Shown here one piece after another: positions 13,327 to 41,039 of a DNA stretch of 64,000 bases. How positions within the stretch are numbered: position 1 is the first letter of the stretch; each line of letters starts with the position of its first letter. Location: the NCBI GenBank assembly GCA_021234155.1, contig JAJEKV010000049.1, positions 5,778,691 to 5,842,690 of the forward strand. The letters run 5' to 3'. Made by a program: the position numbers and the translations under genes. The DNA comes from Isoetes taiwanensis (Eukaryota; Streptophyta; Lycopodiopsida; Isoetales; Isoetaceae). The notes under the pieces are model-generated. The model searched no databases, had not been told where the DNA came from, and saw nothing but the letters and a program-made list of their open reading frames with translations.

Positions 13327-13592
13327 CTGCCAAATCAAAGATCACAATAGCATTACAATTGCCTCGTGACTACAATTTTGCTTGCCTGGCTGACGGGACA
13401 TATACAAACAAGAGAGATGTGCAAAAAGCCCATCATGCTTTTTAAATCCAATGTGATTTTCTGTGCTCTATAGCAGCATTCATGTTAATGGCGATAAAAT
13501 GAGAGGGTGATGCAACTAATTTGTTCATTAAGTTGTTCTTCATGCACAAGACCCCTATTTCCATTCCTTTCTCCAGCCTACCCAAATTTTCA

Positions 13593-14149
13593 TGTGTTAC
13601 AAGCCACATCCCCATGTACAATACGAGGAGAGCACTGAGTATGAAGGAATGCCAAGGCTTTAGCCATTTCCTTGGTGGTCTCTCAATAGCCTTTGGTCTG
13701 AAAATATAGCAGCATAGAATATATATAATAGAACTGCAAACACAGAATAGAACTCCAAGGCCCATCGCAATAATTACAATGGCAGTTCTGCTGAGATGAA
13801 CTCCATGATTCCGAGAACAACTTCCCAATGGTCTGCCACATAGATGAGGATTATGTTCAAATGAATTAAAAACAAATTTTTTCCCAAGAGAAGAAGGAAT
13901 AGTGCCTTTCAGCTTGTTATTTGCAACATCAAACAGATTCCCAAGCTCGAAAGAAATGACTCCTGTGATGTTGTTTCTTGAAAGATCAAGCACCTGCAAA
14001 TTAACAAGCTTGGCAAGTGTCACGGGGTATCACTGCCCAAGGAATTTCCTTCCAAGTGTAGCTTATCAAGATGTGTCAACAACCCTAGCTCAGAAGGAAT
14101 AGAACCATCCAGCTGATTGTTTCCAAGGTCTAGGTACATAAGCCTCTTA
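13593..14149 (-). pseudogene. LRR receptor-like kinase pseudogene, 3' part
   Basis: Reading leftward from 14149, the LRR units are KRLMYLDLGNNQLDGSIPSE, LDKLHLEGNSLG and LVNLQVLDLSRNNITGVISF, then NNKLKGTIPSSLGKKF. The usual juxtamembrane block follows (FEHNPHLCGRPLGSC), then a transmembrane helix (IVIIAMGLGVLFCVCSSIIY) and a short cytoplasmic stretch. In another frame the sequence jumps directly to kinase subdomain VI, KEMAKALAFLHTQCSPRIVH then GDVACNT (13593-13684). The N-lobe is therefore deleted and the C-lobe is cut off after the catalytic-loop HGD. The gene continues upstream beyond the 26-kb insertion, at 40498-42960. Confidence 0.85.
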
Positions 14150-14173
14150 CACAAGGCCCCCAAAAATGAATTG
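14150..14173 (+). repeat. Left terminal inverted repeat
   Basis: The first 17 bp match the right end perfectly. The next seven (TGAATTG) match with two mismatches. The LTR retrotransposon inserted immediately after, at the AATTG. Confidence 0.9.
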
Positions 14174-16707
14174 TGTGACGAGCCTGCCGAGTTGACCCTC
14201 CGGGCAACTCGGGATCTTGTCTGACTTACAACTAGATTTATGCACAGGTGAATTTAGGTGAAGAATCGAATCTTCCTTTGAAAATTAAATCCACAGTTTA
14301 GGCTCAACAAACAACCCTGGTTCATGCATTCAACATATTCACAAGCTTAATATATTCCAAGTTCTAACTGGACAAATCAATAGCGTAAATATTTACAACG
14401 TGCTATCAATATCCATGTACAACAACACTGAGCAAATCAACAGAAACTGCTAGCTCTAGAATTCAAGCACGATTCCCGGCCACATTGCCACCATCAACTT
14501 GGCCGCCACCTTGCGGGTTCACTGCACATGCACTCACTGGGGTTAGTCCTCGTGACTAAGTGGGGATCCCATAGCTGCTGCTGCATACATGGAAACACTC
14601 GGCATCTTGGATAACAAGAACATAGGCAATTCAAACACAAGATTCTATGGTGCAGTGCTAGACAATGACAAGGAAAGAAACATCATAAGCATCGGGAGCA
14701 AAAACACAAAGTCAGAGTACCAAAAGAACATAACAAAGCTCCGGGACAATGGGAAGCTCAGCCAGCCTACATGCAGGCCCTGTTAGCAGAGAAATGCCCG
14801 GCCAGCTCACATTCCGAGCCCCGTTGGCGGAGTTGGTGGGGTGAACCTCGTATGCGCATACCCTTCCCAGCCCACGTCTGGCGCTGGAGGACCTCTTACC
14901 ATGGAGTTCACAAGAGTTGACGTACAACCTCACCGGGAAGCTACGCCCGTGAGGAGGCCACGCCCGGTGTCACAGAGCATAGATACAAAGAGCACAGATG
15001 ACATGAGAATGCCGGAGCTACCCAGGCCACCGAACCTGGAAGTCCGACCCCGGAGGTTCCAAGTACATAACATAATATCACAAGAACAACAGTGGAACAA
15101 TGCAAAAACCATAACATGTGTGTTCATTAGAGAATTTACTATAAATGTGCCTAGGTCATACTCTTAGCCTTCGTCGAGGTTGCCCATACAACCTAACTAT
15201 GCCGAAGTAGCTGGATCGATGATGAAAACCATAATGACAACTCAAATGTTGATGTAGCGTGCTCAACCCCCCTGTAAGGCCGATGCAGGACTCGCTTCAC
15301 CATATTATTTACTTAAGTTCCCTTAGGTATGGTTTCAAGGTTTTAATATTTAAAATTCCACTTCATAGCTAATGAATTAATTGCGCATTCAAACTGGCGC
15401 CTCCAACTTACGCTTTTCCTGCTTAAAAATCCATGGGGTCCCCTGACCGCAACTGCCTGGAACTTCCGTCAAGCAGCTCCCAGGCAAGCCCCATCTCCAG
15501 GAGCAAGCCCGTATAATTATCTTAGATACCTTTGATTTACTAGATTTAATTTACATAATATCTTAGTTAAATGCAACCATTAATAGAATTTCTTACAATT
15601 TGTTATTATTCCGTCGTTGCCTTCATGCTGGAACTTCCTCTATTGGTTACTTCTTCCTTAAACCAGGGTGCATCACAATCCCATCTATGGTTACCTAGCT
15701 TTCTAATTTCTTTTAGCTTGCTAGCAATTGTGCTCAAAGCAACAAATTGGCAATTCTAAATATAAACAACAAATAAGAACCAAAACCCAATAGAATGACA
15801 GGAAGCAGAAAAAACAGCAAATAAGCAAACCAAGATAGACATGTTCGGCCTCTGTGGCCTCTGTGGCTCTGGTTTTGGCATCGATTCACCATCTAGCTAT
15901 GACCCACAACCAAATCGATCTGCTCCAGGCCCAAATCGACCTGATTTAGCTGATTTTGAAGCGTTTTTGGGGCAGTTGGGTCGCTGGAGGATCTCTTCAA
16001 ACACTGCAGAACAGCCATAACGACCCTTGATTCATACCAACCAGCCCTGTAACTTCAATTTCGGCCCCTTTGGATGCTATTGCAGCCCATTTTCCGGAGT
16101 CTCGGAGTTGGATTGTTGCTACCTCAAAGCTGAACCGGTTTTTAAACTCCTGCTAGAAGACTTAATTCCTTCAAATTTGCCTCCGCCCTCTCAGATCTGA
16201 TTGCTAAGAAGCAATTTCGGTGCCTCCTGAGTTGCTTACAGATGACCCATATGCATTAATTCAGCTCCTTCATAAGATCATGTACCATCTTATTAACAAG
16301 GCCTTAACAAGCTATCTCTGAATCCGGTGTTCACAGCAGTTTATAAGCACCCAATCCTTATCCCAAAGCATGAACACTTTTTCTCTTAACAACAACCATA
16401 TGATCCATAAAATCAGCATAAAACCCCACCTGGAAAGGAAGATTTGATGCCGTCTACGCAAGCTCTTGCCTCCAGATAGCCTCCTCCGGCTGCTCTGCAA
16501 CTCAAATCCCTTCTTGGAGCTCCTCTCTTGCAAAAGAAACCTCACGTACCACCAACAAAAGCCCTCTTCTACAATTTTTCCCTTTTTATAGTTTTGCTTA
16601 TGTGGCTTTGCTTATGTGGATATATGCCATGCATATATCCCAATCTATTAGATATATGCTTTATGTGCAGTACCAATGCTGGAGTCTTAGGGCCTAGGAC
16701 CGTTACA
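14174..16707 (-). repeat. LTR copy (3' LTR by element orientation)
   Basis: This copy is about 2,534 bp and is followed directly by ATCTCCCCTTC of the interior. ORFs inside it (for example 15571-15759 and 16312-16545) occur identically in both LTRs and have no protein-family signal; they are not genes. Confidence 0.9.
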
Positions 16708-16809
16708 ATCTCCCCTTCTAAAATTCAACCCATGTCCTCATGGGTCGATCCTAGGAGCTGTCATGCTTATTGACAATTTGCACTAGCAATCTAAAGCAAG
16801 ATACACAGA

Positions 16810-18154
16810 CTGCTACAACAATGAAACAAAAGCAAAACCATCCTGAACCTTACCTGGAATCTGCACTACAGAAGCTCCTTGAGCTCCATCACGTGGAGCT
16901 TCGGCGGCGTACACAACCATTTGATGTTGCGGAAGATCCATCACTGCGGCAGCTCTAGCTTCACCACTCGGCTGCCTTCGCTCAATGATTCTATCGTCTG
17001 TACCCCATCTTTTCTCAGGCTGGCGCTCCCTTTGATTCGAGCGAGGTTCTCCACGGCCTCTGCCTCTACCAGCATTTGGATATCGATTGGATCGTTCTGG
17101 TCCCATGGCACTTCTATCTAGCTGTTGTGAATCCATGGGCATTGAGGAGCTACGTCCCTCAATACTGCCAAATATTGGGCAATTGTTTCTTGTGTGGCCT
17201 GTTGCCCTACAACGAAAACAACGCCCCTCTTCAAAGCACCGCTTTCCTCGTCGATTGAGCCGTGGGGTAACTTACTACCCTCAATCGGCTACTACTTGCC
17301 CGGTTTCTCATATTGTTGCTCAAACCTCCACAGATTGGTTAGCAGATGGCTCCCCTCTAAATGATCGTCTTCGGCCATACGAGCTCTCAACTGGCCAAGA
17401 GGAAGGTGCCTGTCTCTTCCTTTGGGTTTCTAACGCAGCTTTCTCTGCCAAATCTGTTTCTCGGCTTTTGGCAATCCGAACAACCTCCTCAAGGTCCTTA
17501 TAAGCAACTCCTGACATCGTACTCTTGATATCCACATGAAGGCCCTTCACAAATCTAGAACACGCGGCTTGACTTTATCCATATAACAGACAATGAGGTC
17601 GCAACCTTCTAAACCTCTCATTATAATCACGCATCAGTGCCCGTCAGACACAATCGAAGAACTCGTTCATCTTCTCAACCTTGTACCCTGGAGGTGTGAA
17701 ATGACCCTCAAAAGCGGTCTTAAAATCAGCCCATGTAGCCTGGCACTGAGTCTTCCCCAGATCAATCAGGCATGTCTCCCACCAAACTCTTGCAAAGCCT
17801 CCTAACATTGCTTGAGCAAGCAAAGCCTTCACAGAATCCTGTGCTTTGATCAAATCAAAATAAAATTCTACCCCACCTGAGCCGGGCATCGGCATCATCC
17901 CCCTGTTGTGTTCTCACCAGAACACTTCTCTTTGGTGTCCTTTAACACCTTATCAATGGCTTTCTCGGCCTCACTCTTCTCACAAGCGATGCACTTTCTG
18001 GCCGCAAGGCTTGCTGAATAGCTTGCGGGATACTAGTTACATCCGAGCTCCATCGGCCCGTCTCCCCTGCACTACTAGCACCACCAAAGATCCATGATCT
18101 CTTACTAGTGCGCACATAGACAATGGAAACATTAACAACCCACTTCAAGAGCAT
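16810..18154 (-). pseudogene. Retrotransposon gag with zinc knuckle
   Basis: Minus-strand frames give a Retrotrans_gag core, KALLAQAMLGGFARVWWETC then TWADFKTAFEGHFTPPGYKV and EKMNEFF (17644-17898). Next comes YKDLEEVVRIAKSRETDLAE (17320-17550) and a CCHC knuckle CFRCRATGHTRNNC (about 17175-17225, spacing C-x2-C-x4-H-x4-C), then an RGRGRGEP tail (16813-17142). The order is that of Ty3/gypsy-like Gag, which binds and packages element RNA. Several frame changes split it. It is the only protein signal between the LTRs. Confidence 0.8.
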
Positions 18155-18188
18155 GAACCATTCTCAAACTCCCACTAAGATCCAACAT

Positions 18189-18199
18189 GCTCGATACCA
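18189..18199 (-). other. Primer-binding site, initiator tRNA-Met type
   Basis: On the minus strand, just after the LTR, the sequence is TGGTATCGAGC. The common plant primer-binding site is TGGTATCAGAGC, complementary to the 3' end of initiator tRNA-Met. The one missing base falls in a CAG, the trinucleotide at which this tract shows suspected errors. Confidence 0.65.
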
Positions 18200-18203
18200 C
18201 CAA

Positions 18204-20725
18204 TTTAGCGAGCTGCCGAAGTTGACCCTCCGGGCAACTTCGGGATCTTGTCTCGACTTACAACTAGATTTATGCACAGTGAATTTAGGTGAAGAATCAA
18301 ATCTTCCTTTGAAAATTAAATCCACAGTTTTAGGCTCAACAAACAACCCCGGTTCATGCATTCAACATATTCACAAGCTTAATATATTCCAAGTTCTAAC
18401 CGACAAATCAATAGCGTAAATATTTACAACGTGCTATCAATATCCATGTACAACAACACCGAAAGCAAATCAACGTAAACCGCTAGCTCTAGAATTCAAG
18501 CACGATTCCCTACCACATTGCCACCATCAACTTGGCCGCCACCTTTATGTTCACCGCACATGCACTCACCGGGTTAGTCCTCGTGACTAAGTGGGGATCC
18601 CATAGTCTCTTCGCCGCATACATGGAAACACTCTAAGCATCTTGGATAACAAGAACATAGGCAATTCAAACACAAGATTCTATGGTGCGGTGCTAGACAA
18701 TGACAAGGAAAGAAACATCATAAGCATCGGAGCAAAAACACAAAGTCGAAAGTACCAAAAGAACATAACAAAGCTCCGGGACAATGGGAAGCTCAAATGA
18801 CCTACATGCAGTACCTTAGCGAGAGAAATGCCCGCCACCACATTCCGAGCCCGCTATGAGTTGGTGGGTGAACCTGGTGGGGATAACCTTCCCATACCCT
18901 TCCCCGCCCGTCGAGGACCTCTTACCATGGAGTCACAAGAGTTGACGCACAACCTCACCGGAAGCTACGCGAGAGGAGGCCACGCCCGGTCACCGAGCAT
19001 AGATACAAAGAACACGATGACATGAGAATGCCTAACTACCCGGGCCACCGAACCCGAAGTCCGACCCCTGAGGTTCCAAGTACATAACATAATATCACAA
19101 GAACAACAAAGGGAACAATGCAAAACCATAACATGTGTGTTCATTAGAGAATTTACTATAAATGTGCCTAGGTCATACTCTTAGCCCCCTTGTCGAGGTT
19201 GCCCATACAACCTAACTATGCCGGCGAAGTAGATCGATGATGAAAACCATAATGACAACTCAAATGTTGATGTAGCGTGCTCAACCCCCCCTGTAAGGCC
19301 GATGCAGGACTCGCTTCACCATATTATTTACTTAAGTTCCCTTAGGTATGGTTTCAAGGTTTTAATATTTAAAATTCCACTTCATAGCTAATGAATTAAT
19401 TGCGCATTCAAACTGGCGCCTCCAACTTACGCTTTTCCTGCTTAAAAATCCATGGGGTCCCCTGACCGCAACTGCCTGGAACTTCCGTCAAGCAGCTCCC
19501 AGGCAAGCCCCATCTCCAGGAGCAAGCCCGTATAATTATCTTAGATACCTTTGATTTACTAGATTTAATTTACATAATATCTTAGTTAAATGCAACCATT
19601 AATAGAATTTCTTACAATTTGTTATTATTCCGTCGTTGCCTTCATGCTGGAACTTCCTCTATTGGTTACTTCTTCCTTAAACCAGGGTGCATCACAATCC
19701 CATCTATGGTTACCTAGCTTTCTAATTTCTTTTAGCTTGCTAGCAATTGTGCTCAAAGCAACAAATTGGCAATTCTAAATATAAACAACAAATAAGAACC
19801 AAAACCCAATAGAATGACAGGAAGCAGAAAAAACAGCAAATAAGCAAACCAAGATAGACATGTTCGGCCTCTGTGGCCTCTGTGGCTCTGGTTTTGGCAT
19901 CGATTCACCATCTAGCTATGACCCACAACCAAATCGATCTGCTCCAGGCCCAAATCGACCTGATTTAGCTGATTTTGAAGCGTTTTGGGGCAGTTGGGTC
20001 GCTGGAGGATCTCTTCAAACACTGCAGAACAGCCATAACGACCCTTGATTCATACCAACCAGCCCTGTAACTTCAATTTCGGCCCCTTTGGATGCTATTG
20101 CAGCCCATTTTCCGGAGTCTCGGAGTTGGATTGTTGCTACCTCAAAGCTGAACCGGTTTTTAAACTCCTGCTAGAAGACTTAATTCCTTCAAATTTGCCT
20201 CCGCCCTCTCAGATCTGATTGCTAAGAAGCAATTTCGGTGCCTCCTGAGTTGCTTACAGATGACCCATATGCATTAATTCAGCTCCTTCATAAGATCATG
20301 TACCATCTTATTAACAAGGCCTTAACAAGCTATCTCTGAATCCGGTGTTCACAGCAGTTTATAAGCACCCAATCCTTATCCCAAAGCATGAACACTTTTT
20401 CTCTTAACAACAACCATATGATCCATAAAATCAGCATAAAACCCCACCTGGAAAGGAAGATTTGATGCCGTCTACGCAAGCTCTTGCCTCCAGATAGCCT
20501 CCTCCGGCTGCTCTGCAACTCAAATCCCTTCTTGGAGCTCCTCTCTTGCAAAAGAAACCTCACGTACCACCAACAAAAGCCCTCTTCTACAATTTTTCCC
20601 TTTTTATAGTTTTGCTTATGTGGCTTTGCTTATGTGGATATATGCCATGCATATATCCCAATCTATTAGATATATGCTTTATGTGCAGTACCAATGCTGG
20701 AGTCTTAGGGCCTAGGACCGTTACA
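18204..20725 (-). repeat. LTR copy (5' LTR by element orientation)
   Basis: This is the second LTR, about 2,522 bp. From about 18204 to 19225 it differs from the first LTR at many sites, mostly CTG or CAG trinucleotides. From there to 20725 it is nearly identical. Confidence 0.9.
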
Positions 20726-20730
20726 AATTG

Positions 20731-21030
20731 CTATATAAAAACAATACTAGATCATCCGAAAACCATGATAGATGCGGTTTTTCATACAACAATTTTTTCG
20801 ATAGAAGAAAACCACACTCTATAGTGGTTTGTCAAAACCTATAATGGCTTACAACATGGTTATTATTGCTAGTTCTTATGTTACAATGGTTTCTATTAAA
20901 CTGGTTATGCTTAATGAGATGGTTTCAATACAAGCCTTGTGTACCATAGTGGTTTATTAAAACTATTATTGGTTAATTAAAAATAGTAATGGTTTGTTAA
21001 AACCCCTACATGAATAATGACATGATTTAA
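20731..21030. repeat. Subterminal repeats, left side of the TIR element
   Basis: Short motifs of the type ATGGTTTnTTAAAAC recur many times, for example ATAGTGGTTTGTCAAAACC, ATAGTGGTTTATTAAAAC and GTAATGGTTTGTTAAAACC. Dense subterminal repeats are usual in CACTA-type elements, where they bind an element-encoded protein. Before the LTR element inserted, this block lay directly beside the left TIR. Confidence 0.6.
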
Positions 21031-21304
21031 AGATTAGTTTACTATGTTTGAGAACCATGGATGATTACAATATGCATATCTTTTCTTGTGTTCATCTAAT
21101 AGTTCATGTACAAAGTCGAGCATTAGTTTATGCCATAATGGTCTAGATGAGATGACGAACATTGCCACTTTGTCAAAATCATTGCACCTTATATGATGAG
21201 CCAACATTGATCCTCACTTTCGATCCTTTGGCTTATCCGATGGGCTTTTGAACATGTGCCTTCTATGCTCGTCTTCCCAAACACCATCATGCATTTTGTA
21301 TTTT

Positions 21305-21332
21305 TACGCGCGTGTGCGTGCGCGCGTGCATC
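21305..21332. other. Alternating CG/TG tract
   Basis: ACGCGCGTGTGCGTGCGCGC followed by GTGCAT is strictly alternating purine-pyrimidine, in an otherwise AT-rich area. Such tracts can adopt Z-DNA; no function is implied here. Confidence 0.5.
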
Positions 21333-21609
21333 TATATGCAATGCAACTTCTTATGTTAATGAGTTTTTCTTTGTTGGCAACTAAACTGCATTATTTAATC
21401 GGATTCATTGATATAATTATTTGTCTCTCTATTTACCAATTTCATGGCAATTACTCATGAGAAGATGGTACCAAGCCAGGCCCCATTTCGGAACATTTTA
21501 TTGTGTTCTGTGCTTAAAGATGTTTTCAATCATTGCATTTGGAACACATGCAAGCAAGCTACCAATTGCCCTTATTTCAGTGTATCTTATTTGTTGGAAG
21601 TAGTGCTTA

Positions 21610-24600
21610 TCTATATTATAATGTTGTGTAATGGACCACGCCCTAATTTGGGCGGCTCAGAACGTGGCATCATCTTGCACCTTTTTTCCAATCTTATCTT
21701 TTTTTTCTTCTTTTTAGGGTTTTTCTTTACGGGAACAGCGAACAGGGCGAGTAGATTTGACGATCGGATTCATTCTCAAACATACATCTTATCACAAATA
21801 GATACTCTATTTGCAGTTTGTGAAAAAACCCATGCCTGGAAATAAGAGACGGCAGGGCAGGAGCAGCTTCAACACAACAAAGAATAACACAATTCAACGC
21901 TGGTTTTTCTTTAGGGTTTATTCAACGCTGGGCAGGGCAGGGCAGGAGCGGCTCGGTTGCATTTGGATTTAGGGCTCGGTATTTTGTAGAGCCATGGCGG
22001 TGGCACTTGGTTAGGGAGCTCTGCTTAGGGTTATGTCAAACGAAGAGCCGATTTGACACAGATGCCAAAACACTGTATTATCTGGAGCGAAATATCCAGA
22101 TCTTCATGCATTCCTGTTCGTCGGCAAATGAGGAGCCGATTTGATATAGATGGCAAAACATTGTATTAAGTGGAGCAAAACACGGTATTATGTGGAGGAT
22201 TTCATGGTAGTCTAGGTAGCCTACAAGTCCAGTCCACCCCAGAGGCTGGTAATCGATACATGGCTGGTATTGATCTGGAGCGAAATATCCAGATCTTTAT
22301 GCATTCATGTTGGTCGGGAAGCTCTATTTAGGGCTATGGCAAATGAGGATACAGATGGCAAAACACTGTATTATGGGGAGCAATCCAGTAATTATGTTAT
22401 CTATTTAGGGCTATGGCAAAGGAGGAGCACATCCTGAAGCAGATTCTACGTACTGATGTGCAACTGTGGCCTTCAAAAGGTGCATGGCTATGCTTATCAG
22501 GAACGATTTTCATATGGCTGATTGGGAGATCTTGGGAGATCTGAGCCTTGATCTTCAATTTAAGTGCGGGTTCCGTAATACCTAAAGAGATCTTCCACCA
22601 GAGAAATATGAATGATACAATTGATGCTGGACCAAGTGATGATGATTCAAAACAAGATGCTGGATGTAGACGAGCTCCTTATCAGCAGGTTTGATCATTT
22701 ATATTGCTATGAACCAAATCTAAGAGCATGCTTTAATAAGGTAGAAAAGTTATATCATGAATAGTCACAGGGCTGAAAAAAATAGTTGTTTTGCTTTTTT
22801 TCTGATTATTTAAGAATAGTATGTATCTGTTATTGGCTTATATTTCTGGCAGGAGGAACATTCTTGGTCTGGACATAAATTCTATGCTTCTGTATTTGTA
22901 AGACTAAGAGATTAAGGGAATACGAAATGCATGCACATTAGTTGCTTAAGAACTTTGCTAGACAAGGATCCACAGGTTTAATATTGATTATTAATACCCT
23001 TATAGAGGTTAATGCTATGTGGTAGATATGACACAGATTTGTTTTGAAGTGACACAGATTTGTTTTGAAGTGCTAGGATGCTTATTGCCTAAGCCTACAT
23101 CCAAGCCCCAGCAATAACCCCTTCTACCTATTCCTCTTCCTTGCTCGCAGGGTTAATATGTAGCCTTAGAACTTGGTCATTGCAGTAGCATAAGGTCCGC
23201 AAAAGATCCCGTGGGGTCTTTTTCTGAAGGTGGAAGCTTTTTTAATGGTTTGGATTTGGTTTGATTTTCTTTTGGTTTGCAGTAGCAATACAAAAGCAAG
23301 GGAGGTTTTGGGAGAAGCAGAATGAGTAACAGAAACTGTATAGCCTGTGTAAGTAATAACAGTCAAACTGAAGTTTTTATGCAAGGAAATGAAGGCATGG
23401 CTGATTTTCCTTGCTTCTGATTAACAGTTTCCCAGCCGCAGCTAGAATCCAAAGGACAAGTACATTCTGTGCAAAACTATGGTTAGCACCACATTAGACG
23501 TCACATTGTTTTTTCCTCTTTAATTATGAATTTTACTGGCCCTTTAGATTGACATTTAGACAGCTTTTGTAGCAGTTGAGGATATATCTCTACATTAGGA
23601 CCTGGACCATCCACTCAGATATATTTGGCCACTGGAGCTTACAAACGAATACAAGGAATTAATATCTTCTCTTTTTTGCCCATATATGGTTTTTTGTATG
23701 AGTCATCTCAAAGTCAAATTGTATGACATCCCTTTTACTTCCACGTCCACTTCAAGGTTCGTTCCAATGTCCAAAGCATGTTGAACCAAACTTCAAAGCA
23801 ATATGGAATTATTGTAGCCTAAGTTGTTGAACCAAATTTCTAAGAAATTGTGGCTTAAGCAATGTCAGTGAGTTCTGTTGGATTATTGTGAATCCTACAG
23901 CTAGCTTCTGAGCAACTCCATATTTGTTTTAGTGAACTTGCTTAAATAGTAATCTGGAAAATGAGACTAGAGTTTGATGTGTCATGATATTCTTATTTTA
24001 GCATATGCCATAATAGTGAAGGCCCATGTGGTACGTTTGCATGCCAATGCAATGCCATAATGCATTTCGCATCACAGGAATTCATCTGAATATGGTTGAG
24101 TATGTTATGGCTTAAACAAAAATAATGGTCTGGCACTGGCACTGTCCTAGAAGATGCTCGAGGAGGAAAGAGAGATGCAAGAATAGGTGTTTGATCTATT
24201 GAGAACAAGTTAGCATCTCCAGCTACTAAATCTTTGGGCCTACGAGCGTACATGATCTATTGATCAACAAGTTAGCATCTCCATCTACTAAATCTTTGGG
24301 CCTACGAGCATACATGCCCTTTCGACATGTATGTATGTCTGATAGTAGAACTTTATTAAAATCATGGTAAAGATCATGAATTTGGGCCTCAACTTAATGA
24401 GGCAATGTTGTAATCCTTGCAAAGTGGTCCTACATTACATTCTTTGACGATTATAAATGGGATGATATTAAATAATATTATTTATTATAGAATAATAATA
24501 CTACATTTCATGTTATTTGCATTGGTTGTCCAATGGTGGTCAAAGTCCATATGTAATATGTAAGGAGGGATTTGATTAATCAATAAGTTGTTATTTGCAT

Positions 24601-25201
24601 TGTTTGCCCAATGGCGATCACACCAAAGTCCATATGTAAGGAGGGATTCGATTAAGCAATAAGTAGCCATGTGACTGACTGGAGATGCATTTCTAACATA
24701 GGAACAACATGCTGACTTAAAATATATATCAAAGCTTGGATATGAGCTAAATTATCTCTTACTCTTCGTAACACAAAATTCTAATGCTCCTCAATTTGAT
24801 TAGCGGGGAAAAATAAGTCCAAATTGAATGGAATGGTGGCCCTTTGCATTAAGCAAGTCTTTTACAAAGACTCCAATAGATAAGAATGATCTAGCTTAAT
24901 CCAAGTTCAAAAGTGTAACTAGTAGGCCACAAATGCAATGGCAAGATGAATAGAACTACAAACCATACCAAACTCGCACTGTCTTAAATGTCACCGGATA
25001 AAAAGACATGCATTCTATAGGTCTTTGTGGGACGATAAAAATCCATTCAATTCAATTCAAGTCAATTCTATGTTCTACAGAGTGGTGAACCGCAGAATGG
25101 TGAGACTGGTGAGTGGTGAACCGCAGAGTGGTGAGACTGGTGAGTGGTGGCCATTTAAAGGTTTTCAGCTTATGCCCAGCAACGCTGGGCACCGTTACTA
25201 G
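21610..25201 (+). mobile_element. Helitron-like insertion
   Basis: The 3' end is strong: hairpin GCCCAGC-AAC-GCTGGGC (25174-25190), then ACCGTTA and CTAG at 25198-25201, followed by host T. The proposed 5' end is TCTATATTATAATG at 21610, preceded by A, as expected for insertion between A and T; this choice is tentative. No Rep/helicase is visible. The interior is AT-rich with local repeats: a segment containing GAAATATCCAGATCTT recurs in 22036-22330, and a roughly 58-bp pair lies at 24197-24316. A short open exon-like stretch at 22608 (MNDTIDAGPSDDDSKQDAGC) ends at a GT. A non-autonomous copy is likely. Confidence 0.55.
24197..24316. repeat. Direct duplication of about 58 bp
   Basis: ACAAGTTAGCATCTCCA(G/T)CTACTAAATCTTTGGGCCTACGAGC occurs twice in tandem. 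A second looser pair follows at 24500-24665 (both copies contain AGTCCATATGTAA and AAGGAGGGATT). Confidence 0.85.
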
Positions 25202-29715: not shown

Positions 29716-29720
29716 CACAA

Positions 29721-29985
29721 TCTTCCTTTTTAGAAGCATTACCTAATCTCAAAATATTGCATTTATTATATATATGAACTTGACCATCTTCCCCTTCTAG
29801 AAGCCTTATGTAATCTCAAAATAGTACATTTAGTAGTATGTGTATGAACTTCACCATCTTCCTTTCTACCTAATCTCAAAATATTGCATTTAGTGGTATA
29901 TCTATGCACTTGACCATCTTGCTTTTCTAGAAGCCTTATCTAATATCAAAATATTGCATTTACTAGTATATGTGTGAACGTTACC
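29721..29985. repeat. ~70-bp tandem repeats, four copies
   Basis: The unit core is TAATCTCAAAATATTGCATTTA, followed by a TATATNTATGAACTTGACCATCTT-like stretch, in four imperfect copies directly after the 650-bp array. Confidence 0.85.
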
Positions 29986-31345
29986 ATTTTGTTGCAAAGA
30001 ACATATGTGAACCAATGCGGGGATGTTCATATGTGCATGAGCATTATAATAGAGCAGCATTGGCATAACACTCTAATGCATGACAAACACTTTATAAGAA
30101 TCATGACAACATTGCAAGTATGTTCATTCTCAATGCCAACAAGGTGTACTCGATGATCCCGAAAAAGGTAGGGGGCCTTGTGCTATTGGACGCAACTCCA
30201 CAAAGACACGTGGAATGAATCATATCTCGAGATAATATTTCCCTAAGATTTGTGTGATACTAGATTTTTTCTTCAAAAGCGTGGGTTCTAGAGTCCCATA
30301 AAAATCGTGTCTACAACAATAAATCATATCTATATCTCATATCTTAATGTACAAATTAACTTGGACTATTGGCAACGAATTACCTTAGACGTACAACATG
30401 TTTTGAATCCTTTGCAATACAAAATTAATATGAAGCTATAGATAGAAGTTAAGGTGTGCGATAAGGTAGGAAAATTCCTACGCTAATGACATTGAAAAAA
30501 AAATGCAAATATTGGATTCGATTATGTTGTTTCGACATGCAAAAGCAAGGCAAAGACACAATATTTGTTTTCCAAGCGGGTTAGGTCATTTTCGTTTTTC
30601 GAAAAATGTTCAACCAGCTTCTAATGTCGACGGCATGGGGAAAACGGCTGATGGTGCAGCCGTTACACATGAATCATGAATCGAGCTTCATTTTCTTTTC
30701 GAAGCCCTATGCAAAGAGGGTTTGGGCGATTGGGTGTTGTTTTGGGATCATTCAATCCATTCGAAAAACTTGCATCCAAAGATTTCAATCCACGGTACTT
30801 CACATTCTTTGCCCTTCTTTTCTTGAATTGTTAGAGAACCATCTAGATGGAAAGTGCCAATGTATTGCGTTTAAATTAATCTTTCATTATATCAGCCTCT
30901 GCTGGCAATGCATCACAGTTATGAGCCACTGCTTCCTCTACTCTAGGGATTGAAGTATCTAATCACATATCTATCAGTAGCAAGTACAAATAATAGTGGC
31001 AAGTAGAAGTAATCATCTTGTTCACATAATCTTGATAATCAGAAACTGTCTTGTGCTTAAATTAGCAAAGTACCTGCTACTTTTGGAATCTAATTAAACT
31101 TTCATAATAGCAGTCCATTAATATTCTAACTCTTCTATATATGTGAATGGCTGATAAGAGATGCAAAACACAATTTATAAATGCAATCGATTATTGCCTT
31201 AGCTTTGATTGACTAGTGTAGTGTGGATTTCATCAAGTTAATTTAGTGTGCATCAGAGTAGTGTAGACAAAAAGAGATATTCATACTTACTATGTTTAAA
31301 AGTCAGCATTTTCCTAGTTTTATATTGGTTTTTTCTCTCTTGTAG
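29986..31345. other. No gene assigned; one TIR-like end inside
   Basis: GGGGGCCTTGTG at 30171-30182 equals the outer 12 bp of the right TIR. The ORF 30606-30953 has no family signal. The stretch before 31346 ends in a pyrimidine-rich splice acceptor. Confidence 0.4.
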
Positions 31346-31856
31346 ATTATGGATCTCGACATACCTTCCATCTCAATTGTTTCAAGGTGGCAGCCGAAGG
31401 ATGTTGCTGCATATATATGTGATCGGTTTTCATCTCTTCCTTCTGAGAAAATCACAGATTTAATTGTGGAAAATGAGGTTTTGGGTATGACATTTTTGAA
31501 ATATGCCTCTACTGATTGGCTCGATTTAGGATTTGGAAAGGGTACAGCAGTCGGTATTGCAGGATTAAGAGATGAAATCAAAGAGAAGGAATGTATTGCT
31601 ATTGCTACAACAGTGAACATGGTTTCTGCCAAAGCAGCCGCATGTAGCAATTCTGTATCAAGTACTGTTGCCACTCATGGCAGCATAGAAGAGCCCTAGA
31701 CATATCTAACATTTGGCTCATTGAATGCATGAGGAAATATGAAGACCATTGGCTTTCAGAAACACTTGAAGACTCAGTCAAACAGCAAAAGGAACAAATG
31801 TTTAGAAGAACCAAAGAAGGACATTCACATGGTTATCTCAAAATTGGAGGATGGAC
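31346..31856 (+). pseudogene. SAM-domain (sterile alpha motif) gene segment
   Basis: After the acceptor TTTTCTCTCTTGTAG the exon reads MDLDIPSISIVSRWQPKDVA, AYICDRFSSLPSEKITDLIV, ENEVLGMTFLKYASTDWLDL and GFGKGTAVGIAGLRDEI. This has the length (about 65 residues) and helix pattern of a SAM domain: W-xx-DV at the start, xxNE(I/V)xGxxFL in the middle, and a LG..xG...+I final helix. SAM domains mediate protein or RNA binding. The frame stops at 31699. A shifted frame from about 31670 continues RRALDISNIWLIECMRKYED and so on to about 31856, with the change next to a GGCAGC. The gene lies inside the TIR element on the same strand as the 34472-38922 gene. Confidence 0.65.
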
Positions 31857-32474
31857 AAGGTTTTGATTATCATCCAAGGTACTAAAGATCACTCCTACAA
31901 GATTTGAAGTCACTTGTTGAAGAATTGCAAGACATGAGCATGGTATGAAGTCTATTTCATGATTTGAGCATTTGAAGTTTGGATTCTTGATGTTGTAAGA
32001 GTTTTGCCTAGCCAATTTCCCATTTTAATTGCCATTTGACTCATATTCCACCTTCCTATTTCTTGTCATCTCTACACTTCATACTATCATTACCCATACA
32101 TCTATATTTCATCATACCATACTTTGGGATTGTCAATTCACCTTTCCCTAGTCAAAATGACCCACACGCTCATGATCCATCCATACATTCATAAGTTTAC
32201 CAAAAGAAACTAAAAAAATGTTGAGGCATTACCCTACATTATCTCACTTCAAAGACCTAGGGTTAAAATGATCACTAGGTTGAGGAAAGGTGGCTATTCA
32301 AAAGGTTGTCACCTATGTCTAGTTGGCAAAGGGAATTTTTTATGCCCACATCATCACTCACAAGTCCACATCACCATTCATTACACACATTTTCATTCCA
32401 TATCCACCTCATTAAAACAATTTTGACTAGGGAAAAGTTTTTGTCATCCAATGGTACCATCATCAAAGACATTT

Positions 32475-33058
32475 TGCCACCTCACCAAAATTCATGCCTA
32501 GTCACCCCTTCACTCTTTTGACAAAAAATCAAAGTGCTCCAAATCATCTTTTGACAAAACCACCTGGTGGTAGCCCTTGTGAAAATATGCCACCTGGCAC
32601 AAAAAATTTTCAAATTGAGTCTATTTGGACCTCCTTAAGCTACTTCTTGGGAAACGTGCCTTCTTGGAAAAAATGGCAAAACCTACCTACATCTACCCCC
32701 CATCTATCTACCCTCTCATTTTTCCGCCAAAGTGGCGTCCCCTGGCGTGCGTGTCGAAACACTGTTTATCGGCCAGCATTTGCCACCTCACCAAAATTCA
32801 TGCCTAGTCACCCCCTTCACTCTTTTGACAAAAATCAAAGTGCTCCAAATCATCTTTTGACAAAACCACTGGTAGCCCTTGTGAAAAATATGCCACCGCA
32901 CAAAAAATTTTCAAATTGAGTCTATTTGGACCTCCTTAAGCTACTTCTTGGGAAACGTGCCTTCTTGGAAAAATGGCAAAACCTACCTACATCTACCCCC
33001 ATCTATCTACCCTCTCATTTTTCCGCCAAGTGGCGCCCCCAAGTGCGTGTCGAAACAC
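32475..33058. repeat. ~306-bp direct duplication
   Basis: TGCCACCTCACCAAAATTCA begins at 32475 and 32781, and both copies run to GTGTCGAAACAC. They differ chiefly where copy one has CCACCTGGTGG and CCACCTGGCAC, while copy two has CCACTGG and CCACCGCAC. Confidence 0.92.
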
Positions 33059-33394
33059 GAGCCGACGCCGCGTGGGAGGAGACCACGTGTCGATGAAAAC
33101 GGCTTCGAATCAGTATTTATATCCTTGTTTAACTTTTTGCTCTTGGCCTGTGGGATATATCCGTGAAGAAAGCAAGAACCCTTAAAATTTTTGCCAACCA
33201 AGAAACGGAATTTTTGGCGATCCCACCACAAATTAGCATCATTACCTTCCCGAATCCACCTCTGCAACATCAAGAAAACCAAATCGAAGCTAAAAGACAA
33301 AGGATCCGCCAGTAATTCAAGAATTGCAAATGTAACGGGGCCTTTTAAAGAGGGCAAATCTCTATCGCGAAAAATCCAGGGGGCTTTACGCTAA
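33007..33394 (-). CDS. Open frame of unknown family
   Basis: The frame reads KAPWIFRDRDLPSLKGPVTF, DLVFLMLQRWIREGNDANLW and WDRQKFRFLVGKNFKGSCFL. It starts near 33394 without a clear ATG and runs into the 306-bp repeat. The composition looks coding (W, R and D rich), but I do not recognise the family. It may be an exon captured by the surrounding element. Confidence 0.25.
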
Positions 33395-33975
33395 ATTGAA
33401 GACCGCCGGTGTGAAGTACATGCAAAAGCGATCTCCTCACTGCGGATTCGACCATCCTTGCTGTTCAAATTGATCGTTGATCGGTAAAGGCGACCATAAA
33501 CCCAATCCGCTTTTTGAAATATGCTTTGCTCATTAACCGTGGGCATCGAAAATGATGTGATTCCTCCAATTTGATATATCAAGTGAATGAAAATCCAATT
33601 TGGTAATATCTTTCCCTTTGAAAATTGTTGAAGTTCCCAAAAATAGCTCTGAAATAGCTTCTATATTGCATAAAGACTAAAGAAAATTCAAAAAATAGCT
33701 TATTTTGTTTCCTTCAACTAGTATGCATATCAATCAACACCGTTCTATGGTTAATAAAGAAAAAATTTGCTCATCATAATGCAATTCCGCTTTCTCATCA
33801 CTTTAATCGCACCATTGCACACTCTATAGTTGAACTCCCCGGCTCTAGTGGTTTTAATAGCAAGGGTTGATTTAGGATATCTCTATCGCTTTTACATAGA
33901 TTTCCTACTTAAATATCGATAAAATTTGAAAAAGCATTCTCTGTTGCAAAGACACCGCATCTGTCGGTTCATAAA
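33395..33975. other. No gene seen
   Basis: AT-rich sequence between the unknown minus-strand frame and the duplicated block. Confidence 0.5.
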
Positions 33976-35025
33976 ACCCCATAGTTCCAAAATATCTTTA
34001 TTTACGGATCAGTATTAGTGTTTGCACGTAACCCTTTAGACCTTTTAACACCTTTCCGTGGGTTTCATTCAAAAAAGATATTCCTAGAGAATTCTTCAAA
34101 GGAGCTCTCGAGGGGCATTGACCAAATTCTGACCTAGTCAGTTGTGTGATTTTAAAGTACCAAATGATATCTGACTTCAGGATATATTTTGCACATATAT
34201 CACATCAATTGTCTAGTATACTATTGCATTGATTTTAGAAAAAAATTCAACTTATATTGCTCAGAATCTAAAAGTTAGCACTGTGCATTTTCTTCCAATT
34301 TGGGAAGCTGGTTCTAACAGATTTTTTGAAGGTTGTTTCTGCAAATTTTGAGCATAGAGTGGTTGCCTAAAGCAACCTGGAGGTCCTAGACCATTCCAGT
34401 TGAGGGATTGCCAGGAATACCCTCAACATCTTGGAGGCTCCTACCGAGATCCACCCTGGTTCTTGGGAACTATGGCTCCTAGACGAAATGCTGAGACATC
34501 TGAACATGCTGAGGTACAAGATAATGCAGAGGTACAAGCTACACCCCAAGGTATGTCTGTACATCTACCCCATAGTTCCAAAATATCTTTATTTCTGGAC
34601 TGTATTAGTGTTTGCACGTAACCCTTTAGACCTTTTTAACACCTTTCCAGGTGGTTTCATTCAAAAAAGATATTCCTAGAGAATTCTGCAAAAAGGAGCT
34701 CTCTGCCGAGGGCATTGACCAAATTCTGACCTAGTCAGTTGTGTGATTTTAAAGTACCAAATGATATCTGACTTCAGGATATATTTTGCACATATATCAC
34801 ATCAATTGTCTAGTATACTATTGCATTGATTTTAGAAAAAAATTCAACTTATATTGCTCAGAATCTAAAAGTTAGCACTGTGCATTTTCTTCCAATTTGG
34901 GAAGCTGGTTCTAACAGATTTTTTGAAGGTTGTTTCTGCAAATTTTGAGCATAGAGTGGTTGCCTAAAGCAACCTGGAGGTCCTAGACCATTCCAGTTGA
35001 GGGATTGCCAGGAATACCCTCAACA
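33976..35025. repeat. ~455-bp direct repeat flanking exon 1 of the TIR-element gene
   Basis: CCCATAGTTCCAAAATATCT begins at about 33977 and 34568. Both copies run to AGGAATACCCTCAACA (34425 and 35024). The second copy forms almost the whole of the first intron. The copies are nearly identical except at about four CTG/CAG sites in the first 200 bp. Confidence 0.92.
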
Positions 35026-38000
35026 GGTACCACCAACACAATTGACGGTGAAGATCCAAATGCGCAAAGAAAATTCCGTGGGGCTGGTATACTTGTGCAA
35101 TATGGTCAGATACGTTGGGATCGAGTGCCGGAATCTCGTCACGTATTTGTGCTATTGAGTAAAGGAGATGATGTTAGAAGTGGTAAGAAGGCATTAAAAA
35201 AACAGGGCATGATTCACAATGGATGCAAATGGTTGTAAACCATAGAGAGATACGTCATGCTGTTATGGATACTTTTCCAGTTTTTACTCTACCAAGTTTT
35301 ATGCCATGAGAGGAAAACAAAGACTGGAGGAAGAAGAGAGATAAGCTAGTGACTAAACTTTTGGCGAGTGGAAGAATCAAGCCAATAACGTGGCCAGGAG
35401 TATCTTATCCAGTGCCTCCAAAGTTTATTCGTGAAACGATAAGTTTGATAATTACAGGGCAGAAGAGATGGCTGCAAATGAGATCTGAATCTTTTGAGTA
35501 TGAGAGAAATTATCAAGAATGTGCTGAAGTGATGTTGATTGCCTCGTCGAAGACTTTTGCGTTGCATGAGCAAAAATTCTTCGAGGTTCTTTTTTCCTCA
35601 GGTTGCGAGCGGCCGTATTTCTTTGCTAGCGCAGAATTTATAGTGGGAACAGCCCAAGTTAATAATATCATTGAAGAAGATGATTATAAGAAAGTTCAAA
35701 TCAAGATCCCAAGTCTGAACAATAACGGAAAAGATGCCTTTCTTCCATTCGAGAGCTCTAATGCAGGTTCACAACAAAAGATTGGCGATCTCTCCATTGA
35801 GGTAAAATTTCTATAGTACAAGCTTTTAATGATTTTAGAAATCCATTATTCTCACTGTAAATGAGGTGAATTTAAGGGGTATGGATTATAAATTGTTCTT
35901 CTATCGGTGGTGTCAATCTGTTACAATTGGTTAACTAGTTTAAGATCTTTTATTTGTGTATTTACTGGTTCTAGTCAGATGTTTTGTAGTTTGAGATGCA
36001 GTTTGAATTGAAATAGCTTGGATATGTGAGATTATGAATTAAGTGAAGCATGTAGTGCTTATATATAAGAACTGTATGATGTCAGTAGTAAATGTTATTA
36101 TGGCCTCTCTAAATATCATGATATTTTATGGTTTGGTAAGGTTCTTTTGGATGGGTGATTGCTTGTGTTAAGTTGCCGCATGAAGGGTGGTGCCAGGTAG
36201 GTCCATGTGGTTATACAAACTATTTTCCAGATTGAGGCATCTGGGGCTGGTCAGTAGTCTTAGGGAGCATGGTACTGCTTTGAGAACAGGTTAGGTATGC
36301 CATATCATTTATTTCTGGTGCATGCTAGGTTTAGGTCGTTCTGCTGTGCTCAGACCAGGTGAGAGAGCCTTCATTTGTGCTGCACAGGTTTATTAGATGT
36401 TGCTTTAAAAGCTGAAGGTTCATAGCTGGTGTGATAGGTACTTTATGATTTTGATAGAGGTGCAGCCAGCAGTGTTGCTAGGCAAAGCGCCATGTTGCCT
36501 TATTGCAACTCATGTTAAAGTTGAAAAACCACGGTGCAGTCTCTTGAACTGTTTTAGTCGGAGACAGAACTAGAACAAGCTTTCAATGAGGCGCTCCAAC
36601 TATTTGAGAAAATGAAACTAGCTGGTATCACTCTTGCAAATTCCATGCTTGTAGCTATTCTTGATGTATGTACCTTTTTAGGTGCCTTAGAGTCCCTAGA
36701 AGTACATTTTGCGATAATATTTAATAGAGTAGTTTCATGTATTCTCGTAGACAATGATCGAAGCATAATATTGTATCGGGAACTGCAATGATCAGTGGCT
36801 ACATGCACGATGGAAATGTGAATTTGGCTCTGCAACTCTTTTGGAAATGCATGAAGAAAGATAAATCCAAAGAGGATAATCCACTATGGCAGTTATCGAT
36901 ACATGTGCTAGTATATCAGCCGTAATTGAAGGAGTACAGGTCCACGAACTTGTCTTGCATTATGGACTAGAAATAGATACCCTTGTTATGAATTTGATAA
37001 CATTTATGGTAGACGTGGAAGGCTGGCTGAGACAAGTGTTGTCTCACAAAATAATGATGTGCGATGTAACACCATGATTATGATGTGTTGTCAAATTGAT
37101 CATGTAGAGGAAGGCCCTTAGATTGTTTCAGGAGATGAGACTGAAGGTAAGATGCCAACTCATTTTACATGGGCAGCTATTATCAATGCTTACTCTTGTC
37201 TATCTTCCATAGCCAAAGGCTTAGTGTAGAAGGTAGCTAGCATGATTAAAAAGATGCTTTGGAAGCTTGTAATATGAACCAGAGAATAATATGCTTGAAG
37301 CAGATAGTATTATCAAAGATCATCATGGTCTGTTTGTTCTATTTCTATAGATCTATTTTCTAATAATGATTTTTACAGGATGAATTATTGTGGCCCGAGT
37401 GTTTGACATTGTCCACAATGGACAAGGGCTTTGAAAAGGGGTTTGCATCTATTGATGACGAAGATGACGAGGAAGATGCCACCGATAGTGTGAACGAGAT
37501 GGGGACAATATGCAGACCAAACAGGAAGCGTCGTAGTGACTGTAGTGCAAATTCTGGGACATCAAAACAGTCCAATCATGAAAAGGTTTGTCTTCCCAAT
37601 GCATGCAATTTGAGTTTTTTTAATGAAATATTATGTCCTATCTTTACAATTGAAGGTGCAAGAGTTCCATGAGGGTGAATACGTATGTTTAATGCATGAG
37701 GCTGAACCAATTGGAGTGGGGCAGATTCATCAATGTGATCCGATGAAGCTTACCCATGGAATACCTATTGGAGTGGGTAATGTGTCATTGAATATAGATT
37801 TCATTCATGATGGTTGTGAAGGGCTTTCTCTTCCTTTTCCTGCAAATGATGAAGTTATATCATTTGGAGATCTTGGAGAGGAGACAAAGCAGTGGATCAT
37901 CCGTTATCCAAAATCTGCACTTGTAGGCATCTCCAAAGACGAAGCTCAAAAGTTAATCTCTCTTGCGAAGGATAGGAAAAAACGTCTCGAAGAGAGGGAA

Positions 38001-38922
38001 GTCCTGGAAATCTGTGATGAGGTAAATTAGCCATCTCAAATTACTTCAAAGCTTTAATTTGGTTGTTGGAATGATATTAATTATTGTAGATTTGACATGC
38101 ATGCATATGTAAATTTCTGTACCACCATGTTTGAGCAGTTGGAGAATTCGATTTTGAATTGCTTTTCAAATCAGTCTTCCTCCCATTGTGTAAGTTGAAT
38201 CATATAGTGCTGATCATATAGTGTTGATGATCATAGCGGCTGGTCATTTTCTTCATGTAAATCATCTTTTTTAGCAAGCCCCGTGATTTGTAAACTATCC
38301 TTCATAGCAACCCCATAATAGGTCTGCTGTGCATTGTCTTATGAGCATATGTTTCAGGTCTGGTAGCACAATTGTACATAAGCTCTTAAATGTGTTAAAT
38401 ATTTATGGTGGTTTAATGGATTTTGATTGCATGCACCATGCGCATATCTGTTGTAGAGTATTTCTGTGGTAAGATAGAACAACGGGGCAGTCTAGTCATG
38501 CGAGTTATGGGCTTAGAATTTTCTACTTTTAACTCCTTGCAAATAGCAGCTCGTTTATCTTAATTAAGGGTTTGATATTTATACTACTGACATGTCAATG
38601 ATGTATTTTGCAGGTGCAAGTCAATGAGAAACTCTTGCGTGTGCTAGAAAGCATGCCTTATTCGAAGCATAAAATTATTTCCATGGTGGCGCTTGGCAAG
38701 GATAAAGTTAGCGATGTTAGCAGCAGAGACGTACTAGCATTCTGCAAAGACTTCAATGGTAAGCAAAAGAATGCATTTCCAAAAATGTCCAAGCTAAATG
38801 GGCTAGGACTTTACAAGCGCTTTACGGTATTATGTGTGAAGCTGAAGGTAGTGCAGATATCCAAAGATGGATGGAAGACACAGAAATTTGATCGTTCGAC
38901 TATCACAATTAGGCAAATTTAA
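34472..38922 (+). CDS. Five-exon gene of the TIR element, DUF8039-like domain
   Basis: The GT-AG exons are 34472-34550, 35027-35801, 37379-37585, 37656-38021 and 38614-38922, and the junctions keep phase. Exon 1 begins MAPRRNAETSEHAEVQDNAE. Exon 2 begins GTTNTIDGEDPNAQRKFRGA and contains HREIRHAVMDTFPVFTLPSF and WPGVSYPVPPKFIRETISLI; one frame change (about 35232) and one TGA (about 35310) break it. Exon 3 is acidic (SIDDEDDEEDATDS) with a basic RPNRKRRS patch, perhaps a nuclear localisation signal. Exon 4 has VGQIHQCDPMKLTHGIPIGV then SLPFPANDEVISFGDLGEET, like the DUF8039 domain found with plant En/Spm-type transposase genes. Exon 5 is a lysine-rich 102 residues ending RQI. It probably encodes a DNA-binding or accessory protein of the element. 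The ~1.6-kb third-exon approach intron holds a PPR relic. Confidence 0.6.
36554..37130 (+). pseudogene. PPR relic inside an intron
   Basis: In-frame pieces read EALQLFEKMKLAGITLANSM then LVAILDVCTFLGALESLE (36570-36710), AVIDTCASISAVIEGVQVHE (36886-36950) and GRLAETSVVSQNNDV, with stops and frame changes between them. These are the P, L and S-type blocks of pentatricopeptide proteins, which bind organellar RNA. It lies within the 35802-37378 intron and is too degraded to function. Confidence 0.65.
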
Positions 38923-40477
38923 CTTTTTAAGGTTCTTGCAACAATTCTGGGTCTCCAACTGTCATTGTAACAGTTATTAACATAAATATAAGCATTTCTA
39001 TTTTGTGATTTCTATTCACATGTCTGTTTTTAGTTCTGAACCAATTATATCTTGCTATCAGTACACATCATTGATATTACATGGTGTTTGGAATAATGGA
39101 ATGAGGTTTAAAAAATAGATCAACCATTGAAACTACATGGTGTTTGGAATAATGGAATGAGGTTTACAAAAGAGACCAACCATGGTACAATCTGGCAAAC
39201 CATGCATGCTTTTACAAGAATGCATGAGTATTTATAATTATAAATTGCCTTCGATTTTAAATATATTTTTGTATTGCTTACCACTACAAATGGCATAGTG
39301 GTTCAATCACAAAAACATACAATAGACACAATGATATATATGCCAATTCGATTGGATTAACAAGCACTAAACAATACATCTATTTCTCTCAAAATGACAA
39401 TGGTTTATATAAATAAATAAGCTTTGGTTTTGTGAACAACTTATTGTTGGTTCCACGCGCCATTACTGCTGCCTTTATGAGAAAACCAATATGAGGTAGC
39501 GAGGTAAACCTAAGTTATTTTAATTTGTACCATGTAAACTAAAATTGATATGTAATATAAAACATCATTGGTTTGCTTCGAACACAAGATACTTTAAAGA
39601 TGGAATGCCATTATCTATATTTTGATAGAAAACATACATTATCTTTGGTAATAATCTTGAATTCTTATCACATAAGGCAACAATTGCTCATATGAAAAGA
39701 CATTAACGACTACTGTGTGAAGTGCATAAATACTTCAAGCTAAAGCCACTAGTAGTTTACAAATAGAATATGTCTTAGTTTTCTTCCCAAGTTGATACCA
39801 AATGTTAATTCAAACCATAATTGGCTTACCTCATACATAAAATACTTTGAAGATGCAAAGCCACCACGGTATTAAGAGATAACCTGTTAATCGTTTTAAT
39901 AAAGAACTTAAAGCCTTTATTCTATGCAAACACTGGTGGTTTACAAATGGAATATCTCGCAATTTTCTTACTAAACTAAATTCGAAACATAATTGGCTTA
40001 TCCCCAACACAAAATATTTTGAAGATTCAAAGCCAGCACTATGTTGAGACATAAAGTGTTACTTGTTTTCATAAGAAACTTGACGCCTTTATTCGATGCA
40101 ACATCAATGATTCATGCAACAAGATATTAATGAGATGATTCAGAGACCACTATGAGTTGGCCAATTCTTTAAAATTAAAGACACTAGTGGTTTACAACCT
40201 ATACCATTATTTGAGCCACATATCACCTGGCCACAAAACATAGCAATAAACCAACAGAATTGACCACCCTAAGGAGCCATAGTAATAAACTATACCATCA
40301 AACCATAATAAGAAAAAATAGGTACTTACTATGTGGATATACCACATTGAAAAATCTTAGATACAAATCATGCTATTTAACTCCATCTAGTTATTCAACA
40401 TATTAACCCACAAAGTAATATTAGTTTATCCTAGTTGTATAACACAAAAAGTAGCAGAGAAAACTTATAACAATTTT
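38923..40477. repeat. Right subterminal repeat region of the TIR element
   Basis: ACATGGTGTTTGGAATAATG occurs twice at about 39078 and 39132. A roughly 180-bp unit containing GGTTTACAAAT, AAACATAATTGGCTTA and AAAATA(C/T)TTTGAAGAT occurs at about 39550, 39746-39880 and 39929-40060. Many GGTTTA/AAACCA motifs continue up to the TIR, mirroring those at 20731-21030. No gene was seen. Confidence 0.65.
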
Positions 40478-40494
40478 TTTTTGGGGGCCTTGTG
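40478..40494 (-). repeat. Right terminal inverted repeat
   Basis: TTTTTGGGGGCCTTGTG is the exact reverse complement of 14150-14166 and is followed by the TTA duplication at 40495-40497. Confidence 0.92.
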
Positions 40495-40497
40495 TTA

Positions 40498-41031: not shown

Positions 41032-41039
41032 ACTTCAAT

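Follow-up and report, generated by a model that had tools for sequence, protein, structure and literature searches.

The element and the interrupted exon

The window analysed here, a 64,000-nucleotide stretch of Isoetes taiwanensis DNA (C1055:5778691-5842690 of genome G000, 1.66 Gb in 1110 contigs), contains a 26,345-bp transposable element sited in an exon of a leucine-rich repeat (LRR) gene. The upstream part of the host exon was located at 40498-41034 on the minus strand (LRR_1 E value of 5.6e-17 for 40528-41034) and the downstream part at 13442-14146 on the same strand. Between these parts were noted a target-site duplication TTA at 14147-14149 and again at 40495-40497 (features quoted without a strand were assigned none) and, within the duplication, an exact 17-bp terminal inverted repeat (TIR), which reads CACAAGGCCCCCAAAAA at 14150-14166 on the plus strand and is repeated in inverted form, also as an exact 17 bp, at 40478-40494 on the minus strand. 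An earlier reading of the window from its sequence alone (the sequence-only reading) had reported these perfect ends and the TTA duplication in an LRR exon, and its coordinates were borne out. At up to 3 mismatches to the 17-bp ends the window contained only these two matches, as compared to 0.16 expected, and two matches were reached in 1 of 100 shuffles. No match reaching the gathering score was found in Rfam.

Removal of the element together with one TTA joined the minus-strand LRR frame, as the sequence-only reading had maintained, but the frame closed just between two stop codons, and further stops and frameshifts were noted to both sides of the insertion. A tandem 15-bp duplication (40506-40535) that adjoins the insertion in the LRR exon was absent from 4 of 4 fetched paralogues. 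Because of these other lesions on both sides and the duplication beside the site, the joined frame is by itself weak evidence. The uninterrupted paralogue called for in the sequence-only reading was found by comparison of 5 of the 15 places in the genome that matched the right flank, one of the five being the window. In all of the other four (L041-L044, 90–94% identical) the sequence is uninterrupted at the site, where TTA occurs once.

The family of ends and the two genes

Exact copies of the 17-bp end were found 939 times in the genome (496 forward and 443 reverse) whereas the reversed pattern, used as a control in the same genome, was found in neither orientation, which upholds the suggestion that the family is worth naming. 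Eleven closely spaced plus/minus pairs (L001-L010 and C80) were picked among the matches listed of these 939, a sample that is therefore biased to short copies with perfect ends. All 11 were flanked by 3-bp duplications (CTA, TTA, TAA, CTA, ATG, ATT, TAT, AAA, TAA and ATG for L001 to L010, respectively, and ATG for C80), as were further two-ended copies in C176 (CAC), C942 (TTG), C1040 (TTG), C1067 (TGT), C43 (GTT) and C376 (TTC). With the window counted, and with C1060, C1027 and C963 left out since each has one usable end, matching 3-bp duplications were present in 18 of 19 two-ended copies, so that the search proposed for further copies with such duplications was successful. The length of 3 bp is that of CACTA/En-Spm duplications. 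The duplicated sequences varied and were TTA or TAA in 4 of 18 cases rather than the fixed TWA target of PIF/Harbinger. The termini of the window copy and of C43 read CACAAGG and not CACTA, in agreement with the sequence-only reading, and the left end of C176 reads CATAAGG; the agreement of termini among other copies is partly by construction because these copies were found via the ends or their neighbours. A relative at C1027:14500450-14523800 (L012-L014) has two left ends, 98.7 and 98.9% identical to that of the window, and one right end, which halts 13 bp short, exactly where the second left end, preceded by TTT, starts. Here one copy has either inserted into the end of another or become joined to it.

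CACTA/En-Spm elements carry short repeats in both orientations near their ends. Short motifs of the AAACCACTA type were noted in the right subterminal region of the window copy (39935-40494, plus strand), for which 40 scored candidates, including the window, were obtained from the genome. At up to 1 mismatch, there were 85 occurrences of AAACCACTA in the ends (12 × 1.6 kb) and 36 in the interiors (81.3 kb), an approximately tenfold difference in density (4.43 per kb in the outer 2 × 800 bp versus 0.44 per kb inside) pooled over 12 elements that, being related to one another, are not twelve independent observations. The best 10-mer of individual elements was reached by no shuffle in 5 of the 12 (that of L007 being TA-rich); the count was 2 of 60 for L009 and ranged from 6 to 47 of 60 for the six others.

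The relative with a TNP2-type transposase that the sequence-only reading had proposed to look for was found in C43. This complete relative, 15,076 bp in length, has an exact left end, a right end with 1 mismatch and a GTT/GTT duplication. Its minus strand carries two long transposase frames of 614 and 627 residues, the first of which matched PF02992 (TNP2) at 29.0 bits as compared to a cut-off of 28.6. A family profile built from three transposases was compared to four canonical TNP2 proteins encoded in this genome, and the alignment covered the DG and DxP motifs. Pfam matches to TAD, DUF4218 or DUF4216 were seen neither in the C43 frames (E≤1) nor in the frames of C1083 and C963 (E≤0.1), exons outside the frames not being scanned, and a search of PDB with the second C43 frame gave two chance-like matches (E values of 0.015 and 0.73). 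Among the matches listed for canonical TNP2 and CACAAGG ends (of 167 and 939, respectively), no overlap was noted by eye, without a formal test.

What is left of this transposase in the window is a remnant of approximately the last 113 residues (26941-27279, minus strand), 62% identical to the C-terminus of the C43 transposase. No part upstream of the C-terminus was found in the window, so the TNP2 part is lacking. The remnant corresponds to the exon labeled Tudor-like in the sequence-only reading, a label that found no support, as the Pfam scan gave no Tudor match but four sub-threshold matches (E values of 0.04–0.11), one of them to an SH3-B domain. A single-sequence structure prediction of 26935-27282 (minus strand) had a mean pLDDT (predicted local distance difference test score) of 39.9 and was not used.

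On its plus strand, C43 carries a partner gene with a frame of 416 residues and two of 121. The N-terminus of the 416-residue frame is similar to a sterile alpha motif (SAM) domain (PDB 2eap, E value of 5.6e-5). Matches to this gene were found in the window at 31316-31588, 35190-35813, 37638-37982 and 38575-38904, and the corresponding parts of the window copy, all on the plus strand, are a SAM-like first part (31316-31660), a middle part (35024-35813) with frame shifts near 35187-35208 and 93–97% identity to a 368-residue frame of C963, a third exon (37571-38027) and a last exon (38602-38919). The segment 37614-38027 had 84 scored matches in the genome, itself included. The name DUF8039-like, given to the third exon in the sequence-only reading, was not supported, as no Pfam match to DUF8039 was obtained at E≤1 in the window or C43 exons. 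Nor did the partner exons match a TNP1 family in Pfam; the partner is thus referred to as a second gene of the element, as in CACTA/En-Spm (ORF2/TNP1/TnpA), rather than as TNP1.

The two genes recur together. Among scored candidates only, transposase matches at 92 places were reduced to 55 loci and partner matches at 84 places to 81 loci, and a partner was present within 25 kb at 24 of the 55 transposase loci whereas 0.13 would be expected at uniform density. The genes were oriented head to head (divergently) in 23 of these 24 pairs. Tandem repeats with units of approximately 656 bp were noted in the window at 27278-29721, between the transposase remnant and the partner gene, and in C43 (6494-8870 of the fetched stretch), again between the two genes; related arrays were also present in C963, C942, C1067, C1040, C1027 and L009. 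A role of these repeats as a shared promoter region is possible.

Nested segments and replaced sequence in the window copy

The end-to-end length given in the sequence-only reading was correct, but 26 kb is not the size of the element itself because three nested segments together account for approximately 13.5 kb. The outermost is a long terminal repeat (LTR) retroelement of 6,552 bp on the minus strand (14174-20725), with LTRs at 14174-16707 and approximately 18204-20725 that are 95.7% identical and separated by 1.5 kb, and with a 5-bp duplication, AATTG, at 14169-14173 on the left and 20726-20730 on the right. An open reading frame (ORF) within it (16813-17271, minus strand) matched a zinc knuckle at 18.6 bits, just under the Pfam cut-off of 20.8. 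The retroelement lies 7 bp to the inner side of the left TIR. From 20726 on, subterminal sequence follows again, in alignment with relatives, and the left subterminal region (20726-21610, plus strand), which continues the TIR past the retroelement, is common wholly or partly to the relatives compared. The retroelement was not present in the 60–70 bp beside the ends of L001-L010 and C176.

The second segment (21611-25201, 3.59 kb) is repeated elsewhere in the genome and is absent at the exact point in C176 and C942. It is called an insertion because of its absence from these two relatives, no clear duplication being found at its edges. The third (approximately 31661-35023, about 3.36 kb) has probable limits of 31666 and 35020, is flanked by imperfect AGTAC/GGTAC and splits an exon of the partner gene that in C963, where the segment is absent, is the uninterrupted 368-residue frame. 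Direct repeats in and at the edge of the third segment (33976-34428 and 34567-35025, 96.5% identical and 138 bp apart) resemble a terminal-repeat retrotransposon in miniature. Without the three segments the core of the element is 12,847 bp, which lies within the span of 3.7 kb (L003) to 15.1 kb (C43) covered by the measured copies.

Between partner exons, the segment at 35850-37234 is unlike its counterpart in C176 and C963, as if cargo had been swapped in this interval. The segments at this place in C176 and C963 are 88% alike and unrelated to that of the window, patches of which match scattered genome loci and are possibly captured fragments. None of the ORFs scanned in 35850-37234 was above a Pfam cut-off, a PPR-like ORF at 36558-36788 being below it. 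A fragment of C963 (L031 4927-5446, minus strand) had no Pfam match at E≤0.1, and a root-cap-like identity is not claimed for it. In the two-ended copy L007, an NIF phosphatase domain (5611-5997, plus strand, 49.1 bits) is apparently a captured host fragment; with this fragment between its ends and no transposase match, L007 shows features of Pack-TYPE (Pack-CACTA) elements. Outside the element, two ORFs at 48587-49700 resemble hAT transposases as judged by eye. Elsewhere in the genome, a plant-type rbcL is present.

Classification, alternatives and proposed mechanism

These findings make it highly probable that the window contains a non-autonomous copy, with an internal deletion, of a cut-and-paste family that is related to CACTA (TNP2-type) and has CACAAGG ends, and that this copy was later enlarged by the three nested segments. 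Features in common with CACTA/En-Spm elements (TNP2, PF02992) are the 3-bp duplication, ends that start with CAC, subterminal regions with an apparent enrichment of motifs, a TNP2-related transposase with aligned DG and DxP motifs, a second element gene and copies without transposase. The differences are the CACAAGG ends, a marginal TNP2 match, a SAM-like partner placed head to head with the transposase and the lack, in the frames scanned, of Pfam matches to TAD, DUF4218 and DUF4216. PMC8978399 gives 3 bp as the CACTA target duplication, requires the CACTA motif to be intact and describes a basic ORF1 set of TAD, Transposase_21, DUF4218 and DUF4216. Since the motif and three of these four domains were not found, the family is called CACTA-like and not canonical; that it would function as CACTA elements do is better supported than canonical membership. 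The family deserves a name as a divergent CACTA-like lineage, distinguished by its unusual partner gene, but stays within a known kind. A further proposal, that the family is a major lineage of its own alongside canonical plant CACTA, is doubtful though possible. In such a lineage, CACAAGG ends and a TNP2-related transposase with a C-terminal extension peculiar to it would be accompanied by a divergently transcribed SAM-like partner that joins the ends by SAM polymerisation, and the region shared by the two genes would carry the tandem arrays.

Similar elements have been described. The soybean CACTA elements TgmR* (13 kb) and Tgmt (20.5 kb) are, according to PMC4219821, of the same size class, inserted in host genes and equipped with a tnp2 ORF1 and a smaller ORF2; unlike the present family, TgmR* is called CACTA by its terminal ends and tnp2 transposase. 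Pack-CACTA elements, as described in PMC8903248, likewise include non-autonomous copies whose ends are intact, and the host-gene fragments that they carry have a parallel in at least one copy of the present family (L007). The supposed cargo of the window copy, in contrast, is element-encoded. An internal tandem-repeat array is shared with the CACTA relatives of Jozin, for which PMC8978399 describes a 171-bp satellite near the 3' end as opposed to the units of approximately 656 bp that in C43 lie between the genes. A search of open-access literature found no paper that joined CACTA transposon with CACAAGG termini, none that joined CACTA, sterile alpha motif and plant transposase, none on CACTA with divergent transposase, TnpA and TIR and none on DUF8039, from which it does not follow that the family is new to the literature. 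The one paper that combined CACTA transposons with a SAM domain was on miRNA targets.

Several results weigh against assignment of the window copy to a CACTA-related family. Transposase, partner and both ends were seen together only in C43, and the PF02992 match of C43 is marginal, since the C1083 frame falls short of the cut-off at 21.7 bits and no match was obtained for the C963 frame at E≤0.1. The profile comparison with canonical TNP2 proteins, at an E value of 4.7e-5, had a probability of 68% and, across 115 columns, an identity of 30%. In 26.5 kb of C963, a left end with matching flank was not found (one site with 3 mismatches was noted), and 14.5 kb of C1083 contained no end when as many as 3 mismatches were allowed. 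The two-ended copy in C3 is flanked by TGG and GAG and thus has no duplication, C135 is the single pair of the 24 that is not divergent, and CACTA duplications in rice and maize are, according to PMC8903248, of 5 nt and not 3. The SAM assignment depends on the single C43 match, a three-row profile giving just an E value of 0.028, with no match for the window or C963 copies alone and none in Pfam. Lastly, AAACCACTA was chosen after looking, from a best-10-mer test of the outer 2 × 400 bp, in which the best subterminal 10-mer of the window was not significant (reached by 6 of 60 shuffles).

Four other explanations are less probable. An assembly join, which the sequence-only reading had named as a way to be wrong, or a pair of unrelated single ends is almost certainly excluded: nothing was found in its favour, an identical TTA lies on either side, and the four empty paralogous sites and the close two-ended copies elsewhere argue strongly against a join, which was rejected on these grounds. 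Elements of the PIF/Harbinger superfamily carry a PIF-type DDE transposase plus a Myb-like protein. The TTA duplication of the window, which had led the sequence-only reading to leave this superfamily open, agrees with the TTA/TAA target that PMC8903248 assigns to the majority of PIF elements in rice and maize. Such an origin is nonetheless very improbable and was rejected, because the 3-bp duplications vary in sequence, with TTA or TAA in just 4 of 18, and because C43 has a TNP2-type transposase and frames in which the Pfam scan detected no PIF-type family and neither of the two PIF/Harbinger proteins.

The sequence-only reading had taken the SAM, Tudor-like and DUF8039-like pieces for cargo. 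That the window copy is a Pack-type element with captured host genes would be in keeping with the NIF phosphatase fragment of L007 and with the patchwork at 35850-37234. This explanation is nevertheless unlikely, as the pieces are homologous to the two genes of C43 and hence are genes of the element, which recur together at 24 of 55 loci with 23 pairs in the same orientation; the cargo reading was rejected once C43 had been found. Alternatively, the two genes might be a hitchhiking pair, with a different, unseen transposase mobilising the CACAAGG ends. The lack of a complete end pair around the C1083 and C963 transposases points in that direction, as do L001-L010: in tblastn at E≤1e-4 none of them matched the transposase, and traces of the partner were seen in L007 only. 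A hitchhiking pair is quite improbable, because the first of the two genes is related to TNP2 and because C43 is a complete copy that has ends as well as a duplication.

For the CACTA-related family, the following mechanism is proposed. By analogy with En/Spm, a transposase of the C43 type would cut at the CACAAGG ends. TnpA of En/Spm acts by binding to subterminal motifs, by which the two ends are brought together. In the present family, the partner protein may bind the AAACCACTA-type subterminal motifs and multimerise via its SAM-like part, perhaps by SAM contacts, and so bring the two ends together. The window copy, which has kept both ends but only the C-terminus of the transposase, would have moved in trans.

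The window example indicates that nested insertions together with element-encoded genes can mimic giant size and cargo. Annotation based on CACTA termini would overlook a family with 939 exact ends in one plant genome, and the head-to-head arrangement of two genes with a SAM-like partner suggests a mode of end joining in CACTA-type elements that differs from the TnpA model and can be tested.

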